Part shown: piece by piece, positions 13,394-22,518 of the stretch
How the letters are laid out: each line of letters begins with the position of its first letter
Position numbering within the stretch: the stretch's first letter is position 1
Assembly (NCBI GenBank): GCA_012517355.1
Contig: JAAYVD010000076.1
Location: forward strand, 1 to 44,562
Length of the DNA: 44,562 nucleotides
Source of the DNA: Candidatus Rifleibacteriota bacterium
GTDB taxonomy: Bacteria; Muiribacteriota; Ozemobacteria; Ozemobacterales; Ozemobacteraceae
Reading direction: 5' to 3'
Notes under the pieces: model-generated
What the model was told of the DNA's origin: nothing
Database searches by the model: none
Seen by the model: only the letters and a program-made list of their open reading frames with translations
Program-made: the position numbers and the translations under genes

Positions 13394-16300
13394 TCAGGTC
13401 GCCGGGGGGCGCCACCCGGCAGGCACTTCGTCCCCGACCAGCAGATGGAGCGCCAGGGGTTCCGACTTGCCCTTGAGGGAAATGCGCTCGAGAGGCCGGA
13501 AGGCCCCCTCGGGGGCGGCCTGGCGGACCGCCTCCGAAACCACCACCGCGGGGGCCCCCTGCTTTTCGGCCACCCCCAGCAACCGCGCCGCGGTGTTGAC
13601 CGTGTCCCCCATCACCGTGAAGGCCAGCTGCCCCTGGCGCGCCGCCGACCCCACGTTGCCGGCGATCACCGGCCCCCCGTGGATGCCGATGTCGGTCCGC
13701 ACCCCGAACCGGCCGGCCGCCCGACGGTCCCGGTCGAACCCCGTCGAGATCTCCTGCATCCGGCGCGCCGCGCCCACCGCCCGCGCCCCCGGCAAGGGAT
13801 ACCCGGGAATGGGATCGAAGACCGCCATCACCTGGTCCCCGATGAACTTGTCGATCCAGCCGTGGTGCTCCTGCACCGCCGCCTCGAACCCGGTATGGTA
13901 CTCCTGCAGGAAACCCACCACCTCCTCGGGCGGATACCGCTCCAACAAATCGTCGCAGCCTTGCAGCCGCGAGAAGAGCACCGCCACCTGCAGCTCCTGC
14001 CCGCCCAGGGCCAACCCCTGTTCGGGGTCTTCCTGCGTGCGCTCCCAGACCTTTTCGGAAACGAATTGCCGCAGCCGCTCACGCTGCTGCAAACCCTCGG
14101 CCATGGCGTTGAAGGTGACTGCCAGGTGGGAAAGCTCGTCCTGTCCGGGGTCCTCGACACGGGCCCCGAATTCCCCCTGCCCGACCGCCGCCACCAGTCG
14201 CCGCAGCCGCTCGACCCGCGCCAGCAGGCTGCGCGAGATCCCGGCGGCCGCCCCGCCCAAAAAGCCCACCCCCAGCAGCAGGGCCATTCCCATCAGCCCC
14301 AGCAGGAACCCCCGGCCCCGCTCCAACTCCCGCCGGTCCACCATGGCCACCAGCCGGTATCCGTTGAACCGGTAGGGCGAGAGGGCGGTGGCCAGGGCCT
14401 CCCGCCCGCCCCACTCCACCAGGTCGCTCTCGAACGCCCGCGTCACCCTGGCCCGGGTCACCAGCGCCTCCATCCCCTCGGACGGCGCCACATAAGCCGG
14501 CTGCCACCTCCCGTCCGGGGCGACGCCGCACAGGCGAAGGGCCCCGGCGGTCTCCCCCGCCGGACCGGCCGGAGCCAGGACGGGCCCCAACCATGTCTCC
14601 AGGAGACGCCGATGGCCGGCCACCCGGTCCATGACCGGTTCCGGCCCCACCCCCCCGCCGGTGACGGGGCCGGACCCGGTGGCTCCGACCGGGCATTCCG
14701 CCTCGACCACTGGTGGCCAGGAGGCCAGGAGGAACCGGTTCAGGGAGTCGACCAGGTCGTCGAGGTCGTCCCGGTCCAATCCCGCTTCGGCCGCAGGATC
14801 GAGCCAGCGGCCGGCCGGCCCGGCGGCCAGGTGCCCCCGGACGGTCTCTCCGAGCCGCCCCGGCGCCGCACGCAGGTGCCGGGCCACGGCCGGAAGGTCG
14901 GGGAACTCGCCCGGTGAGAAGGCCCGGCTGCCCTGCAGGCGCGCGATCTCCTGCACCAATGCAGGATGGGCCAGGGCCGCCCCGTCGAAGAACCAGCTCA
15001 GCAGCCCGTGCACCTGGCCGGTGTCGATGTCGGTGAGGATCACCACCCTCTGGTAGAGCGGGTATCCCTCGTAGGTAAACGGATGGATGCCCCGGACATT
15101 CGACTTCACCAGGAAATGGGTCACCTGGTCGAGGGAGTTGCCCGCCACCAAGGCACGGTCCGAGGTGAACAGCGGGGGGACCGGCTGACCCTTCTCGCTC
15201 AGCACCTGGCCCAGGGCCTGCCGGAGGAAGGTCTGGAAGGTCCGGCCCTCGTGGAAACACGGAAACCCTCCCTCCCGCCTCACTTCCTGGCCGCGGCTGG
15301 TCAGGAGGATGGCATCGAAAGCCCCGCCCACACCCCGCAGGCCATCCAGGGCGCCTTGGAGGGTTTCGCTCGAGGCCGAAGCCACCACCAGCGCCTGCAG
15401 GGCCCGCTCCTGGCGGTCACACCAGTCCTGCCGGGCTTCCAGATGCCGGCCGAACGACTCCTCCATGCCGGCAAACAGGCTCTGCATCCGGTGTTCCCAG
15501 CGGATCCGCTCGCGCCGCCCGGCGTCCCCGATCCGGTCGAACCCCAGCCAGGTGACGAGTATCAGGGGCACCACCGCCAGGCCGAGGAAGATCCCCGCCA
15601 CGCGGCCTTTCAGCCCGAGCCCGAGCGGCAGGCCGCGCCACCAGACCCGGTGGGCGCCCACCAGCAGCAGGACGGCGGCCGCCATCCCGGCCGCTCCCGG
15701 CCAGGACCACCCCAGCCGGCCCAGGCCGGGCCGGGGCGGGCGTGGCATTCCCAGAACCACCCACCGGCCGTTCTCTCCCGGAAGATACCGCGCCGTCCAG
15801 GCCACCCCCCCGGCGACCACCCTGGTCCAGCCGCGGACGAGGCGGCGCATGGCCTCCGGCGGTGGCAACCGGCCCCGGGCGCGCGTTTCTGCGACAAACC
15901 CGGGGCCGACCGACACGACGTCGGAAGGGCTTCCCCCTTGCCGCCACGGAGGGCGGCGCGAAACCCCCGTTTCGCCCCCCGCAAAGGGGCCGACCTCCCG
16001 CACGATGGCGGCGTGCCGAACGTCGGTGGGAAGCCGCCGCAACGCCCACGCCCCCACTTTCGTGGCGGGAACCCGCTCCTGTTCGAGCAGGAGCCACAGC
16101 CCCCCCCGGCCTGACGTCCCGGGTCCCCCCGCAGGGACCGCCGGCAGGGCCCACGAGATCACCCGCACCCCGCGCCGCAGCACCAGGCGCGGCCCCACCC
16201 CCGGCCCGCCGAGGTCTTCCAGGTCGGTCAACCCGCCAAACAGGGCCTGGCAGTGGCTCCGGGCCCGGCGCCGGGCCTCCGCCCGGCCGGCCTGGCGGCC

Positions 16301-16780
16301 GGCCCCGCCTGTCCCGGCCGCCAGGCCGGCCCACAGGATCTCCCAGGACCGCCGGCCGGTACCACCCACGGGGAAGGTCAGCCGCCCGTCCCCGTCGAAC
16401 ACCATCACCCGGGCCTGCGGGAACCGCCGCTCCAGCGCCCCGGCCAACGCGGACAAAGAGCGGGGTCGCGACTCCGGCCCCCCGGCCCGGGACATGGCCA
16501 GCCGCTCCCAGGCCCGGCACCGGAGCCGGAACCATTCCAGCCGGTCGAAAGTGGCCGCCACCGTGGTGGCGGCATCCCCCAGCGTCTTGCGAATGCGCTC
16601 GTCCTCGAAGACCCCGGAACGGGAACGGACCTGGTCGATACTCCAGATCGCGCCCCACCCCCCACCCACCCACACCAGGAGGAAGGCCAGGAAACGCCAG
16701 CGCCGCGGGGCAGGGACCACCGCGGACCCCGTCGCCAATGGGCGCGCGGATTGATCCCGGGTCGGGAGGAGGTCGTTCAT
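13394..16780 (-). CDS. receptor-type class III cyclase, C2-like partner
   Basis: The protein has 1128 residues. Membrane segments are seen near residues 28-48, 355-375, 393-415 and 817-845, with large extracytoplasmic regions between them. A HAMP-like linker (about 845-905) and a C-terminal class III nucleotide cyclase domain (about 930-1115) follow. Catalytic residues by eye: Lys978 and second metal Asp982 (DKFIGD), adenine-reading Asp1059 and transition-state Asn1062 and Arg1066 (GDTVNTAAR) are present. The first metal-binding Asp, normally in F-A-D-L-R, is Arg938 (FSRLQG). Alone it should not bind both metals. It starts in a 4-base ATGA overlap with the upstream cyclase, whose missing residues are complementary. 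Residues about 262-293 are encoded by a REP-like repeat. Confidence 0.9.
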   Translation of the reverse strand: MNDLLPTRDQSARPLATGSAVVPAPRRWRFLAFLLVWVGGGWGAIWSIDQVRSRSGVFEDERIRKTLGDAATTVAATFDRLEWFRLRCRAWERLAMSRAGGPESRPRSLSALAGALERRFPQARVMVFDGDGRLTFPVGGTGRRSWEILWAGLAAGTGGAGRQAGRAEARRRARSHCQALFGGLTDLEDLGGPGVGPRLVLRRGVRVISWALPAVPAGGPGTSGRGGLWLLLEQERVPATKVGAWALRRLPTDVRHAAIVREVGPFAGGETGVSRRPPWRQGGSPSDVVSVGPGFVAETRARGRLPPPEAMRRLVRGWTRVVAGGVAWTARYLPGENGRWVVLGMPRPPRPGLGRLGWSWPGAAGMAAAVLLLVGAHRVWWRGLPLGLGLKGRVAGIFLGLAVVPLILVTWLGFDRIGDAGRRERIRWEHRMQSLFAGMEESFGRHLEARQDWCDRQERALQALVVASASSETLQGALDGLRGVGGAFDAILLTSRGQEVRREGGFPCFHEGRTFQTFLRQALGQVLSEKGQPVPPLFTSDRALVAGNSLDQVTHFLVKSNVRGIHPFTYEGYPLYQRVVILTDIDTGQVHGLLSWFFDGAALAHPALVQEIARLQGSRAFSPGEFPDLPAVARHLRAAPGRLGETVRGHLAAGPAGRWLDPAAEAGLDRDDLDDLVDSLNRFLLASWPPVVEAECPVGATGSGPVTGGGVGPEPVMDRVAGHRRLLETWLGPVLAPAGPAGETAGALRLCGVAPDGRWQPAYVAPSEGMEALVTRARVTRAFESDLVEWGGREALATALSPYRFNGYRLVAMVDRRELERGRGFLLGLMGMALLLGVGFLGGAAAGISRSLLARVERLRRLVAAVGQGEFGARVEDPGQDELSHLAVTFNAMAEGLQQRERLRQFVSEKVWERTQEDPEQGLALGGQELQVAVLFSRLQGCDDLLERYPPEEVVGFLQEYHTGFEAAVQEHHGWIDKFIGDQVMAVFDPIPGYPLPGARAVGAARRMQEISTGFDRDRRAAGRFGVRTDIGIHGGPVIAGNVGSAARQGQLAFTVMGDTVNTAARLLGVAEKQGAPAVVVSEAVRQAAPEGAFRPLERISLKGKSEPLALHLLVGDEVPAGWRPPAT
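15902..15995 (+). repeat. REP-like repeat inside a coding sequence
   Basis: This copy keeps both stems of the family: CCGAC...GTCGG and CCGCC...GGCGG, with the GCGAAAC block. It lies within the minus-strand cyclase gene and is read through in frame without a stop, adding about 31 residues to the sensor region. It closely matches intergenic copies at 34173-34270 and 333-420. Confidence 0.8.
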
Positions 16781-19644
16781 GCCGGCCCGCTCTCCCCGCC
16801 GTCAAGCCCCTTCCAGGGGAGCCCGACCTCGAAACAGTCCTCTCCGGCCCCGGGCAACGACCACTGCGGAAACTCCCCGCCGAGGCGCTCCGCCACCGCC
16901 GCCGACACCACCACCCGGCTGCGGGTGGCCAACTTGCTGGCCGCCTCCAGCCGCATGGCCCGGCCCACCTCCTTCCCCAGGACGGTGAGGTCGCGCCGCC
17001 CGGTCCGGGAACCGATGCGGGCTTCGATGAGCCCGCCGAAGTGGATGCCTACCCCATTCTCCAGGGGAAAGCCGCCGTCCCGGAGTCGCTGCCGGTTCAG
17101 GTGGGAAAGCCGGGCCCGCATGGAAAGGCCCGCCACCACCGCCCTCCGACAGGGGTCATCCTCCCCCTCCACGACCGGGAACACGGCCAGGATGGCATCC
17201 CCGATGAACTTGTCGATCTGGCCGCCGTTGCGACGGATGAGCCCGTCCATGGCCGTGAAGTAGTCGTTCATCATCCGGATGACCTGGCCCGGGGTCCGGC
17301 CTTCCGAGATGCCGGTGAAGTTGCGCAGGTCGGCGAACAGCACCGCCGCCTCCACCCGACGGGCGACCGCCGCCCCGGGCTCATCCCGGCCGGTCTCCTG
17401 CCAGACCCCGGCCGACACGTAGCGGCGCATCCGTTCCCGGTGTTCCAGCCCTTCCGCCATCCCGTTGAAGGCCCGGCAAAGGTCGCCCAGTTCGTCGGCC
17501 CCCGGAATGGGAAGGCGGACCTCGAACCGGCCCGCCGCCAGGGCCCGCGCCCCGCCGTCCAGCAGCAGCACCGGTTGCAGGAACAGCCGCCGGACCAGCA
17601 GGACCGCGACCAGGAGACTGCCCAGCCCGAGCACGATCTCCCCGGCGATCAGCCACAGATCCTGCCGGCGGCTTTCCTCGAGGCGGGCCTGGTCGACAAC
17701 CCCGAACAACCGGTGTCGCGGCAGAAAGGTGGAGACCATCGCCTCGGCCAGAACGGGGGCACTCCCGATGACCCCCGTCGTCCCCTCGATGGTGCGTGAC
17801 CGGTAGGCCCGCTCCGCCAGCTCGCCCAGGAACGGGACATCCCGGAAGGCCAGGGGCAGGATCTGGAAATCCATGATCGAACCCCGCCGGACCCCGTCTC
17901 TGGGCAGATCGGTTTCATACTGGGCATGGAACTTCCAGGCGAGATCGGCATTGGTGAACATGGCATGCATGACGCCGAGCAGACGGCCATCCAAAGCGGT
18001 GACCCCATCGAGGAATCCCGTGGTGATTTCCCCGAAGGCATCGGCGGTGACGAGTCGGCCATGGTTGAGAAAGAACGGTTGGAACAGGTTCCTCTCGCCG
18101 AGCAGTTCCTCGAGCCCCAGCTCGACGCGGGGCGGGGCCGGTGGCGCCGTTCCCGGGGCGCTTCCTTCCCGCATCTCCGAAAGATACTGCAGAAACTCCC
18201 GCAGGACGACCCGGACCAGCCGGCCGACCGAGTTGTCCTTGCCCGCATACTGCCGTTGGGCGAGCTGGTTCATCCGCAGGACGCCCTGCCGGTCGAGAAA
18301 GAACAGCACGACCCGCCGGAACGCGTTCACCTCCGGGTCTTCGGGAAGGTCCAGGCCAGGCTGCCGGCCGAGGCGGCTGCGCCACGCCCCGAAATCACGC
18401 TGCAGCCGGTCCACGCGGTGGATAACGCCGCGGTCACCCTCCTGCAACACCCGCCGGATCGCTCCCCGCCAGTGGTTCTCCCACAGGGTCCGGGTTTCCA
18501 GGAGGCGGGTCAGGCCGAAATACCCCAGGATCAGCCCAGGAACCAGCCCCCCGAAGGCGAAGGCGGCACCCAGCTGCCAGGTCAGGGGCCACCCCAGCCC
18601 CTCCGGCCGCCCCAGGCGGCCACCCACCGACCACCCGGCGACCAGCGTGAGGAGGAGCAGCCCGGCCTGGACCACGGTCACCCACGGGCCGGGACGGACA
18701 CTGTACCAGGGCCGGGCGATCCCCACCACCACCTGGTGCCGACGGGAGTCGCGCCCCGTGGTTTTCAGGAAAAAGCCCTGCGGAAACGCCTCGACCTCGT
18801 CCTCCAGGATGGGAACGGGAAAGGACGGAATGCCCGCGAAGGGCGACCGGACCACGCTGGCCACCGCCCCGCCGCCCGTGGGAAGGGCGGCCGCGTAGGC
18901 GACCTCGGCGGGGGCTTCCTCCAGGGCCAGGCGCCAGACCGCCTCGGCGCGGAGGTTCTCCTCGTCGATCTCGAGATGGACGCCGGTCTTGAACTTCCGG
19001 CTCTCGAAGACCGACCGGTCCAGGCAGACGTGGGTGGCTGAGGCGTGCCGGGTGGCGAGCCGGAAGGAAAACCCTGCCGCCCGGGCGACCTCGTTGAGCG
19101 TGATCTGGTGGCCATACAAACGGGTGAGAGCGGCACGGCCCCGCTCGAGGTCCTCAGGCATGCCGGGAACGGAATCCCCCCGACGGATGTCGAGATCGAC
19201 ATCCCGCCCGACCCAGACCTGACGAACCAGCTCCGCCTCTGGGGAGGGGTCGGGATAGCAGACCTGAAAGGGAAGCTTCTCGGGATCGCGGGGAGCCATG
19301 ACGAACAGGCGGAATCCATGGTCCAGGGAATGGAGGAACGGGGCGAAGCCCTCCCGGAGGCGGGAGACCAACGACGGTGCGGCCCCGGCCGTGAAGCCGG
19401 GGATGCCGGTCGGAAAGGCGCGCAGGAAAATCCGTTGCAACACGGTCGCCGGTTCCGCCGCTTCCCGGACCCTGACCGCGGCGGGGAAAAGGAGCCGCCG
19501 GGCCTCCTCTTCACTGGAACGCCACGTCAGTTCCTGGAACCCGTTCCACAACGCCGCCAGGAACACGGCGGGAAGAACGGCAACCAGGGCCCCAACGACC
19601 CGCCAGCCCCGGGCTTCCCTCCTTCCGGTGGCGGCGCCGCTCAT
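16777..19644 (-). CDS. receptor-type class III cyclase, C1-like partner
   Basis: The protein has 955 residues with the same plan as its downstream neighbour: N-terminal membrane segment (16-36), an extracytoplasmic sensor region, paired membrane segments near 318-340 and 351-380, a second sensor region, a membrane segment near 661-684, HAMP (about 685-740), and a cyclase domain (about 765-940). Metal ligands Asp772 (FADLRNFT) and Asp816 (DKFIGD) are present, as is Lys812. The adenine-reading Asp is Lys891 and the transition-state Asn is Gly894 (LGKEVGRAMR); Arg898 remains. It should bind metals but not complete catalysis as a homodimer. The two genes look like a tandem duplication that divided the active-site work. 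Product (cAMP or cGMP) is inferred to be cAMP from Lys and Asp identities in the composite site. Confidence 0.9.
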   Translation of the reverse strand: MSGAATGRREARGWRVVGALVAVLPAVFLAALWNGFQELTWRSSEEEARRLLFPAAVRVREAAEPATVLQRIFLRAFPTGIPGFTAGAAPSLVSRLREGFAPFLHSLDHGFRLFVMAPRDPEKLPFQVCYPDPSPEAELVRQVWVGRDVDLDIRRGDSVPGMPEDLERGRAALTRLYGHQITLNEVARAAGFSFRLATRHASATHVCLDRSVFESRKFKTGVHLEIDEENLRAEAVWRLALEEAPAEVAYAAALPTGGGAVASVVRSPFAGIPSFPVPILEDEVEAFPQGFFLKTTGRDSRRHQVVVGIARPWYSVRPGPWVTVVQAGLLLLTLVAGWSVGGRLGRPEGLGWPLTWQLGAAFAFGGLVPGLILGYFGLTRLLETRTLWENHWRGAIRRVLQEGDRGVIHRVDRLQRDFGAWRSRLGRQPGLDLPEDPEVNAFRRVVLFFLDRQGVLRMNQLAQRQYAGKDNSVGRLVRVVLREFLQYLSEMREGSAPGTAPPAPPRVELGLEELLGERNLFQPFFLNHGRLVTADAFGEITTGFLDGVTALDGRLLGVMHAMFTNADLAWKFHAQYETDLPRDGVRRGSIMDFQILPLAFRDVPFLGELAERAYRSRTIEGTTGVIGSAPVLAEAMVSTFLPRHRLFGVVDQARLEESRRQDLWLIAGEIVLGLGSLLVAVLLVRRLFLQPVLLLDGGARALAAGRFEVRLPIPGADELGDLCRAFNGMAEGLEHRERMRRYVSAGVWQETGRDEPGAAVARRVEAAVLFADLRNFTGISEGRTPGQVIRMMNDYFTAMDGLIRRNGGQIDKFIGDAILAVFPVVEGEDDPCRRAVVAGLSMRARLSHLNRQRLRDGGFPLENGVGIHFGGLIEARIGSRTGRRDLTVLGKEVGRAMRLEAASKLATRSRVVVSAAVAERLGGEFPQWSLPGAGEDCFEVGLPWKGLDGGESGPA

Positions 19645-19899: not shown

Positions 19900-22518
19900 T
19901 CAGGAAACACTCCCGCTCCCGTCCTTGGTACGCGCCGGGGTTCCCCCCGGGCCACCCGCCCCGGCCCCCGCCTCCGGATCGGCTTTCGGCTGCACGAAGG
20001 GCAGTTCCAGAAGGAACCGCGCGCCCTTCCCCGGCTCGGATTCGACCCGCACCTCGCCGTGGTGGGTCAGGGCGATCTGCCGCACGAGCGCCAGGCCGAG
20101 CCCGGTGCCCCCGATCTCGCGGTTGAGGGAGTTTTCGACGCGGAAGAACTTCCCGAACAGCCTCTTCTGGTCTTCGACGGAGATGCCGGGCCCGGTATCG
20201 CGCACGCCGATCTCGTAGGTCGCGGTCGCATACCGCAGTCCCACCTCGATCCGCCCACCGGCGGGGGTGTACTTGATGGCGTTGGTGACCAGGTTCAGCA
20301 CGGCTTGGTGGAGCAGGTCAGGATCGAACACCGCGGTGCGGCCCGACTCGGGGAGGGTCATCTCCAGGTGCAGGTTCTTGTGCTGGGCGTCGGCCCGGCA
20401 GACGGTCACCACTTTTTCGACGATAGTACCAGGCACGCCGGACTGGAAGTGGAGCACCCGCCGGCCCGCCTCCATCTTCGACAGGTCGAGGATGTCGTTG
20501 ATCAGGTTGGTCAGCCGTTCCGATTCGCCGAGGATGATCTGGACGTATTCCTTCGCGGTGGCGGGGTCGGGGTGCTCCTCGTCGAGCAGCATCTCGGCAT
20601 ACGCCCGGATCGAGGTCAGCGGGGTGCGCAGTTCGTGGCTGACGTTGCTGACGAACTCGGTCTTCATCCGGTCGATCTCCCGCTCCAGGGTGATGTCGCG
20701 GGCCACCCCCATCACCGCGATGGGCTGGCCGGCTTCGTCCAGGACCCGCTTGGTGTAGAACCCGAGGCGCCGCTTGACCATCCCCCTGGTGTCGAGCAGG
20801 ACGGCCTCCCCGCCGCCCGGACCGGCGCAGGGGGCGGCCACCTCGGCCGCGCCTGGCTGGGACGGCCCGGCCGGGGCGCTTTCCTCCGGGGCGGCAGTCC
20901 CGGTCCTTGCCGTTTCAGCCTGGGCAGCGCCGGTCTGAGCGGATTGGGCCTCGGCCGCGCCATCGGGGACGGCGCCGGCCCGGGCGGGACCGTCCCGGCC
21001 GACTCCGGCTTGGGAACCCGCCGTGGAAGCCGCACCAGCCCCGAGGGTGGCCGCCGCCCTGGTGCCGCCCTGGGCAGAGACCACCGCCTGGACCTGGATG
21101 AACGGGCGCTGGAAGATCTCCTCCCACCGTTTCCCCGTCCAGGGGTCGGAACCCAGTTCGAACAGGCTCTGGAAGGCCGGGTTGAGGTAGCGGATCTCCC
21201 CTTCCGGGCCGAGCAGGGCGATCCCCTCGTTGGTGGCAGCGAACAGGGCCGCGAAGACGGTCCGCTCGTCGGCGAGGGTGCGCGAGGTGCGGGCCGCGCT
21301 GGTCTCGGCGGCGGACAACTTCTCCTGCGTGACGGCGAGGTTCTCGTTGGCGGCCTTCAGCCGTTCCTCGAGCGCGCCGGCCATCTCCTTCGCCCGGGCC
21401 ATGAGCAGCGGCGTGAAGATGGAGTAGAACCCGAAGAAGAACGCCCAGTGCAGCAGCAGGCCGGGCAGGCCGTTGATCAGGGCCCGCACGAACAGCCGCG
21501 GATCGCCGCCCGATACCGCCACCATCTCCCGGACGCTGCCGGCAAGGAAGAAGAAGGTGACGCACAATCCGAGGACCCCCGCCCACAGCGCCCGTTTCCG
21601 GATTCCCCAGCCCACGGTCAGCAGGAAGGCTCCAAGAAACAAAGGGACGAGGGAGTCGCCGCGGATGGCCGCTCCCCACCGGCCCGGGCCAGGCGAACCG
21701 TGCGGGTCGGTCCTCACAGGGCCCGTTCCCGTCCTCCGGGCACCGGAATGCTCCGAAGCCCGTTTCGCGGCCGGTTCCGTGACATTCCCCGTGCCCGGCC
21801 CCCCGGCGGGTTGCGCAGCACTCCCCGTATCCGGCTCCGCGGCAGGCTCCCCACCCGATTCGGCGACAGGCTCAGAGTCCGGCTCCGCGGCGGTTTCCAC
21901 GACAGGCCCCTCGCCGGTTCCCGTGCCGGTCGCGGCCGGAGGTCCACCCTTGGGGGTCCCGACCGAAACCAGGTACCGCCCCTCCTCCTCCCCGCCCGCG
22001 CCGGATCGCGACACCGCGACGCCCGGCTGCTCGATCCGGGGCCTGATCTCCAGTTTCAGCAGGGAAAGGAAGTGCAGCACCCCGATCAGGAAGAGGACGG
22101 AACCCATCGTCAGCACCAGCGTGCCGGCACACCCCACCCACCGCTGCGGGTCGAGGTCGGTCAGCCAGCGCCGCGCGCCCCGCAGCAGGTTGGCCAGCGG
22201 AGCGGTTCCTGAACTGAGATACCCGAGCCCGAACAGCAGGGCGGCAAGCTGGACCTTGCCGGGCAACAGGAACAGGACACCCAGGAAATACCACAGGCAC
22301 CCCAACCCCCGGCCCCGCGGCTGCCCTTCCCCCGCCCCGGTCTCGAGGCTGTCCTGCAGCGCGGCCGCCGCCAGGAACAACAAAAGCGCCCCGGCGACCA
22401 TGTCGAGGCAGAGGCCCAGGCTGGACAACCCGGCCAGCGCCCCGGCGATCACCAGGACCAGCGAAAACCCCCGCAACACGCGGGGCAGCAGGAAGGACTT
22501 CGCAGCAGGCGGTTCCAT
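19900..22518 (-). CDS. multi-pass membrane sensor histidine kinase with PAS domain
   Basis: The protein has 872 residues. Hydrophobic segments lie at about 12-60, 71-100 and 125-155, and again at 280-370. A Pro/Gly/Ala/Glu-rich linker of about 110 residues (165-275) separates the two membrane sets. A coiled segment leads to a PAS domain (about 410-610) that is split by about 80 Ala/Gly-rich residues. HisKA carries phospho-acceptor His628 in SHELRTPL. The ATPase domain shows NAIKYT (N box), DTGPGI (G1), and GGTGLGLAL (G2). It should autophosphorylate and pass phosphate to a response regulator, probably one of the two encoded divergently at 23041 and 23411. A possible extended -10 (TGGTAGAAT, minus strand 22536-22528) lies close to the ATG. 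Confidence 0.93.
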   Translation of the reverse strand: MEPPAAKSFLLPRVLRGFSLVLVIAGALAGLSSLGLCLDMVAGALLLFLAAAALQDSLETGAGEGQPRGRGLGCLWYFLGVLFLLPGKVQLAALLFGLGYLSSGTAPLANLLRGARRWLTDLDPQRWVGCAGTLVLTMGSVLFLIGVLHFLSLLKLEIRPRIEQPGVAVSRSGAGGEEEGRYLVSVGTPKGGPPAATGTGTGEGPVVETAAEPDSEPVAESGGEPAAEPDTGSAAQPAGGPGTGNVTEPAAKRASEHSGARRTGTGPVRTDPHGSPGPGRWGAAIRGDSLVPLFLGAFLLTVGWGIRKRALWAGVLGLCVTFFFLAGSVREMVAVSGGDPRLFVRALINGLPGLLLHWAFFFGFYSIFTPLLMARAKEMAGALEERLKAANENLAVTQEKLSAAETSAARTSRTLADERTVFAALFAATNEGIALLGPEGEIRYLNPAFQSLFELGSDPWTGKRWEEIFQRPFIQVQAVVSAQGGTRAAATLGAGAASTAGSQAGVGRDGPARAGAVPDGAAEAQSAQTGAAQAETARTGTAAPEESAPAGPSQPGAAEVAAPCAGPGGGEAVLLDTRGMVKRRLGFYTKRVLDEAGQPIAVMGVARDITLEREIDRMKTEFVSNVSHELRTPLTSIRAYAEMLLDEEHPDPATAKEYVQIILGESERLTNLINDILDLSKMEAGRRVLHFQSGVPGTIVEKVVTVCRADAQHKNLHLEMTLPESGRTAVFDPDLLHQAVLNLVTNAIKYTPAGGRIEVGLRYATATYEIGVRDTGPGISVEDQKRLFGKFFRVENSLNREIGGTGLGLALVRQIALTHHGEVRVESEPGKGARFLLELPFVQPKADPEAGAGAGGPGGTPARTKDGSGSVS

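Follow-up and report, generated by a model that had tools for sequence, protein, structure and literature searches.

The window, the whole stretch of 44,562 nucleotides that was analysed, carries two adjoining reverse-strand genes for predicted receptor cyclases, P0001 (upstream) and P0002 (downstream). Both open reading frames lie where the original prediction had placed them, as does the overlap that joins them, and each protein has a HAMP and a Guanylate_cyc domain. The features of the pair are listed below; borders of the extracytoplasmic regions are approximate.

16777..19644, minus strand: predicted C1-type receptor adenylyl cyclase subunit, P0001, 955 aa (ORF, HAMP, Guanylate_cyc, key residues)
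13394..16780, minus strand: predicted C2-type receptor adenylyl cyclase subunit, P0002, 1128 aa (ORF, HAMP, Guanylate_cyc, key residues)
16777..16780, minus strand: ATGA, 4-base stop/start overlap between the P0001 and P0002 genes (ORF coordinates)
16879..17352, minus strand: C1-type catalytic domain (Guanylate_cyc, aa 765-922 of P0001); D772 and D816 kept, Asn replaced by Gly, LKGK missing
17329-17331, minus strand: D772 of P0001, metal Asp 1
17197-17199, minus strand: D816 of P0001, metal Asp 2
16963-16965, minus strand: G894 of P0001, Gly at the Asn position
13460..13990, minus strand: C2-type catalytic domain (Guanylate_cyc, aa 931-1107 of P0002); R938 for metal Asp 1, with K978, T1055, N1062, R1066 and LKGK kept
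13967-13969, minus strand: R938 of P0002, Arg at the metal Asp 1 position
about aa 1102-1105 of P0002: LKGK motif
17443..17598, minus strand: HAMP of the C1-type subunit, aa 683-734 (Pfam PF00672, E 1.4e-11)
14084..14239, minus strand: HAMP of the C2-type subunit, aa 848-899 (Pfam PF00672, E 1.2e-11)
18682..19542, minus strand: C1 subunit extracytoplasmic region 1, about aa 35-321 (hydropathy; no Pfam family)
17650..18516, minus strand: C1 subunit extracytoplasmic region 2, about aa 377-665 (hydropathy)
15719..16636, minus strand: C2 subunit extracytoplasmic region 1, about aa 49-354 (hydropathy and predicted helices 26-77 and 355-381)
14312..15544, minus strand: C2 subunit extracytoplasmic region 2, about aa 413-823 (hydropathy)

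Both proteins fall within the class III cyclases by their PF00211 matches (E 1.8e-15 and 2.1e-13) and by a cyclase fold. In the predicted structures the catalytic domains are confident and match CyaC, Cya2 and CyaB in Foldseek, with TM-scores of about 0.7-0.85, normalised to the target, against bacterial class III cyclases; the upstream domain also matches mammalian VC1. The double extracytoplasmic sensors that had been proposed for both proteins are clear in the upstream one. In the downstream protein three transmembrane segments exceed the threshold; a weaker fourth one, at about 355-381, is predicted to be helical. Full-length predictions are weak in the sensor regions, the first sensor of the upstream protein falling below pLDDT 50, and we therefore name no sensor fold; a Pfam search of both proteins likewise matched no family to these regions. 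A PAS-HisKA-HATPase histidine kinase is encoded at 19900-22518 on the same strand, 255 bases upstream of the pair, and genes for tRNA-Leu, tRNA-Gly, trigger factor, ClpP and ClpX lie downstream.

Six catalytic positions (metal Asp 1, Lys, metal Asp 2, the substrate position, Asn and Arg) were read from a profile HMM alignment. The resulting keys are D-K-D-T-G-R for P0001 (D772, K812, D816, T887, G894, R898) and R-K-D-T-N-R for P0002 (R938, K978, D982, T1055, N1062, R1066). Neither chain holds the full set of six that a homodimeric class III cyclase carries, and the losses of the two are complementary, as in a C1/C2-type pair. Of the two domains, only the downstream one has the C-terminal LKGK motif. 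Alignment to solved cyclases puts R938 opposite the first metal Asp of CyaC (1wc0), so the loss of this Asp from the downstream protein, as stated in the original prediction, is borne out by the alignment. The other residues that it named also occur under the numbers given (D772, K812, D816, K891 and G894 upstream; R938, K978, D982, D1059, N1062 and R1066 downstream).

One assignment was mistaken. K891 and D1059 had been taken for the adenine-reading position, and this column, the Asp of 'GDxVN', is excluded as the substrate-reading site by the alignments to CyaC, which has Pro there, and to P. aeruginosa CyaB, which has Arg. The substrate-specifying residue lies seven positions before the Asn and is Thr in both proteins (T887 and T1055). 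Base reading is thus not lost upstream, and the losses there are the Asn (G894) and LKGK. In class IIIb cyclases, Lys plus Thr predicts ATP as the substrate. K978 and T1055 give the C2 domain the Lys plus Asp/Thr combination expected of an adenylyl rather than a guanylyl cyclase, which predicts ATP as the substrate of the window pair. Judged by these residues, each protein would be inactive alone. The window C1 domain is among the least decayed of its type, and because it still has K, T and R, residual or weak homodimer activity is possible.

The genome that contains the window (7.1 Mb in 184 contigs, from an Ozemobacteraceae genus) has 87 PF00211 matches. Adjacent or fused cyclase domains form 28 pairs, 16 in separate genes and 12 in single frames of about 1600-2700 aa that hold both a C1 and a C2 domain in one chain. 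All 28 pairs (28/28) combine a C1-type domain, with both Asp kept and Asn and/or Arg lost, and a C2-type domain, with Asp 1 lost and Lys, Thr, Asn and Arg kept. Sites are incomplete in 56/56 paired domains versus 4/31 unpaired ones (Fisher p about 1e-18, indicative only, because the domains are related by descent). The remaining 27 of the 31 unpaired domains have the complete catalytic set; the four that do not are an extra C1 gene in the C20 triple, an orphan C2-type gene (C112) and the divergent C50 and C166. At C20 (locus L035), two C1-type genes and one C2-type gene stand in a row. The orphan C112 (locus L059) belongs to the same subclade as C20, with which it might pair in trans, and both fall in the subclades of the window pair. 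At two loci, conserved between two genomes of the genus, a complete cyclase stands beside a small divergent cyclase-like protein with the key DADNNA (L062, C166; and L104, C23 of G001).

Most subunits share one layout by hydropathy: four transmembrane segments, two extracytoplasmic regions of about 300 aa, a HAMP domain and then the cyclase. Fused chains repeat it, with about eight transmembrane segments. The genes of separate pairs are closely spaced (-20 to +30 bases in 39/47), and 20/47 show the exact 4-base overlap of the window pair. The overlap had been expected to secure equal synthesis of the two subunits; its frequency fits coupled translation, and the overlap does not prove equal synthesis.

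Relatives carry the same arrangement. A conserved-stretch scan with a narrow C1 alignment returned named hits that include Ca. Ozemobacteraceae bacteria and Ca. Rifleibacterium amylolyticum. We counted pairs in a first set of eight genomes (G000, G001, G005, G006, G011, G019, G022 and G023), in which C1 stands beside C2 in 79 of 85 cases of same-strand neighbouring cyclase domains. The six other cases are the two C1 genes of the C20 triple, a complete cyclase with a small divergent neighbour (in two genomes), a complete cyclase adjoining a C1/C2 pair (G001 C18), an unrelated divergent frame (G020) and, as the sole real exception, G005 C35. With overlap removed, the eight genomes hold 74 complementary pairs and one exception. 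Pairs number 17 in G001 and 18 in G005, and also occur in G006 and G011 of the same family and in G019 of another. Two more genomes were fetched once the rule had been fixed, Ca. Rifleibacterium amylolyticum and a relative of the same genus as the window (the genome of L127), and 24/25 of their pairs are complementary. For G034 C112 the pair counted is the C2-C1 pair and not the complete cyclase beside it, and some C2 domains showed a gap at metal Asp 1, which was checked in the sequences themselves. The trigger factor encoded in the window shares 81% identity with the one from the Ozemobacteraceae bacterium of L127 (contig CALLCO010000297.1) and 59% with the one from Rifleibacterium. Across all ten genomes 98/100 pairs are complementary, although these are not independent events because most of the pairs descend from one ancient split. 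Relatives were thus found to hold the co-occurring neighbours that the original prediction had called for, and 98 of the 100 homologous pairs divide the residues alike instead of each keeping complete sites. The two exceptions (G005 C35 and G033 C2) are orthologs in which the C2 partner keeps metal Asp 1 and has Glu at Asp 2.

Because only Asp 1, Asn and Arg enter the definition of the two types, the other positions serve as a non-circular test. Metal Asp 2 is kept in 78/78 C1 domains versus 41/76 C2 domains. The converse holds for Lys (75/76 C2 versus 35/78 C1), for Thr/Ser at the substrate position (76/76 C2 versus 40/78 C1) and for the KG motif (75/76 C2 versus 0/78 C1). The sequence pattern outside the definition fits the predictions of a heterodimer model. 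In a tree built without the catalytic columns and their neighbours, the C1 clade holds 75/79 of the C1 domains and the C2 clade 73/73 of the C2 domains plus five others. Distance matrices of C1 and C2 partners are correlated both among the 28 pairs of the window's genome (Mantel r 0.67; at most 0.33 in 2000 permutations) and among 74 pairs overall (r 0.77; at most 0.21 in 2000 permutations), and the window pair groups as sister of the C20 pair in the C1 and the C2 half of the tree alike. Together these trees and distances point to one ancient duplication and split, after which the pair was duplicated as a unit.

Similar pairs occur outside this group. In three spirochaete genomes (L189, L199 and L201) the C1 keys are DKDTGE, DKDASE and DKDTTE and the C2 key is HKDTNR; both halves nest among complete cyclases in the tree, apart from the Ozemobacteraceae clades. 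One of these genomes has a second pair (L208, TKETNR and DSDTRA), and in another of them an asymmetric pair (L205) joins a C1-like domain, DKDTND, to a complete cyclase. Several of the spirochaete pairs have overlapping reading frames and differing N-terminal regions. The pair in G022, from another family of the phylum, forms a small clade of its own. By their sequences, the spirochaete and G022 pairs seem to have reached the same split independently, the number of origins being provisional because branch support is moderate. Complete cyclases also occur side by side (L141, L186 and L206), so adjacency alone is not the cause of the split. In G023, of the same phylum, the tandem C1-C2 chains of L079 and L081 resemble sAC and have neither HAMP nor membrane sensors.

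The proposal of a C1/C2 heterodimer with one composite site held in all comparative tests, including the alignment and the pairs of relatives. The dimerisation that it presumes is indirectly supported, because natural fusions, gene coupling and tree co-variation all tie the partners together. We conclude that the window pair is very probably an obligate heterodimeric C1/C2 adenylyl cyclase. Beyond the observed gene layout, the residue split and the conservation and co-variation of that split over the pairs, we infer how the two chains would dimerise, what they would make and how they would integrate signals. Each gene would provide one subunit of a receptor adenylyl cyclase that works only as a heterodimer; a subunit would comprise four transmembrane helices, a pair of extracytoplasmic sensor regions, HAMP and a single class III catalytic domain. 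The catalytic domains would form a head-to-tail dimer in which the upstream, C1-type domain supplies the two metal-binding Asp. The downstream, C2-type domain would contribute Lys and Thr to select ATP, Asn and Arg for the transition state, and the LKGK arm. Such a heterodimer would have one working site and one dead site, and the latter may serve regulation. Signals received by one subunit or by both would be relayed by the paired HAMP helices and set cAMP output. The cyclic-nucleotide-binding family has 24 matches in the same genome versus the 87 class III cyclase domain matches, so candidate cAMP receivers exist there.

A variant compatible with the heterodimer is that subunits also mix and match among the 28 systems, beyond the gene neighbour. 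The orphan C2-type gene C112 and the two-C1 locus C20, both from the window pair's subclades, speak for such exchange. We nonetheless regard it as unlikely, since the trees of the partners co-vary and their genes are either fused or coupled in translation. Less likely still is a division of labour in which one subunit forms an active cyclase as a homodimer and its partner, a pseudoenzyme, has a purely regulatory role. In its favour, nothing but the Asn and LKGK is missing from the window C1 domain, unusual residues are tolerated in some class III cyclases, and the spirochaete pair L205 combines a C1-like with a complete domain. Yet the C2 domain alone has no complete metal site, and a single decaying partner would not yield complementary losses in 98/100 pairs, nor would it leave both Asp intact in all C1 domains and Lys, Thr, Asn and Arg in nearly all C2 domains; the complementarity of the losses rules out decay of a single partner. 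It is very improbable that both proteins are devoid of cyclase activity and form a nucleotide sensor or a pure signalling scaffold: although each window domain on its own is incomplete, strong constraint preserves the residues of one composite site while those of the second decay freely. Finally, the window comes from a fragmented genome of 184 contigs, but an alignment or assembly artefact is scarcely credible given open frames, the same pattern in more than ten genomes of two phyla and agreeing alignments to solved structures.

Heterodimeric cyclases as such are well known in eukaryotes. Like the mammalian membrane adenylyl cyclases (AC1-9, with a C1/C2 core, e.g. 1azs), the bacterial pairs would take metals from C1 and substrate and transition-state residues from C2, with one active and one dead site, and the fused chains echo the mammalian TM-C1-TM-C2 layout. 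Unlike mammalian C2, the bacterial C2 domains have Thr (class IIIb type) and not Asp at the substrate position (T1055 in the window; Thr/Ser throughout). In place of two 6-TM bundles in one chain, they have four transmembrane helices per subunit, or about eight when fused, together with HAMP and large extracytoplasmic sensors. The bacterial pairs usually occupy two genes, and we saw no sign that the mammalian split shares descent with the bacterial one. Soluble guanylyl cyclase alpha/beta (e.g. 4ni2) likewise combines two gene products in one composite class III site, but it is eukaryotic, makes cGMP, senses NO by haem and is no membrane receptor. The homodimeric CyaC, CyaB, Rv1625c and Cya2 share the fold and the catalytic residue set of the pair as a whole, but hold all residues in one chain, with two equal sites. 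Tandem cyclases like sAC (ADCY10) put C1 and C2 in one chain with one active site, as do the sAC-like chains of G023; they are soluble, lack HAMP and sensors and lie elsewhere in the tree. In a published account, mammalian adenylyl cyclases draw metals from C1 and substrate and transition-state residues from C2, and bacterial class III cyclases are described as homodimers with the full residue set per chain and two equal sites (PMC4174876). We found no bacterial precedent for HAMP-coupled C1/C2 receptor pairs or heterodimeric class III cyclases in the open-access literature.

The 28 pairs in one genome, 12 of them fused, suggest that bacteria have both evolved and multiplied heterodimeric cAMP receptors. 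It is likely that a bacterial lineage independently invented an animal-style C1/C2 adenylyl cyclase and expanded it to dozens of receptors per genome, including fused chains of about eight transmembrane helices in the order sensors-C1-sensors-C2. In each receptor, the input of as many as four extracytoplasmic sensor regions would converge on a single site of cAMP synthesis, leaving the dead site free to become a regulatory pocket. With dozens of paralogous pairs, apparently several origins and natural fusions, the change from a symmetric enzyme to an asymmetric heterodimer can be followed by comparison. The pairs make it possible to test the regulatory role of the dead site and how many parallel cAMP receptors escape cross-pairing, and they may provide bacterial two-input cAMP parts.
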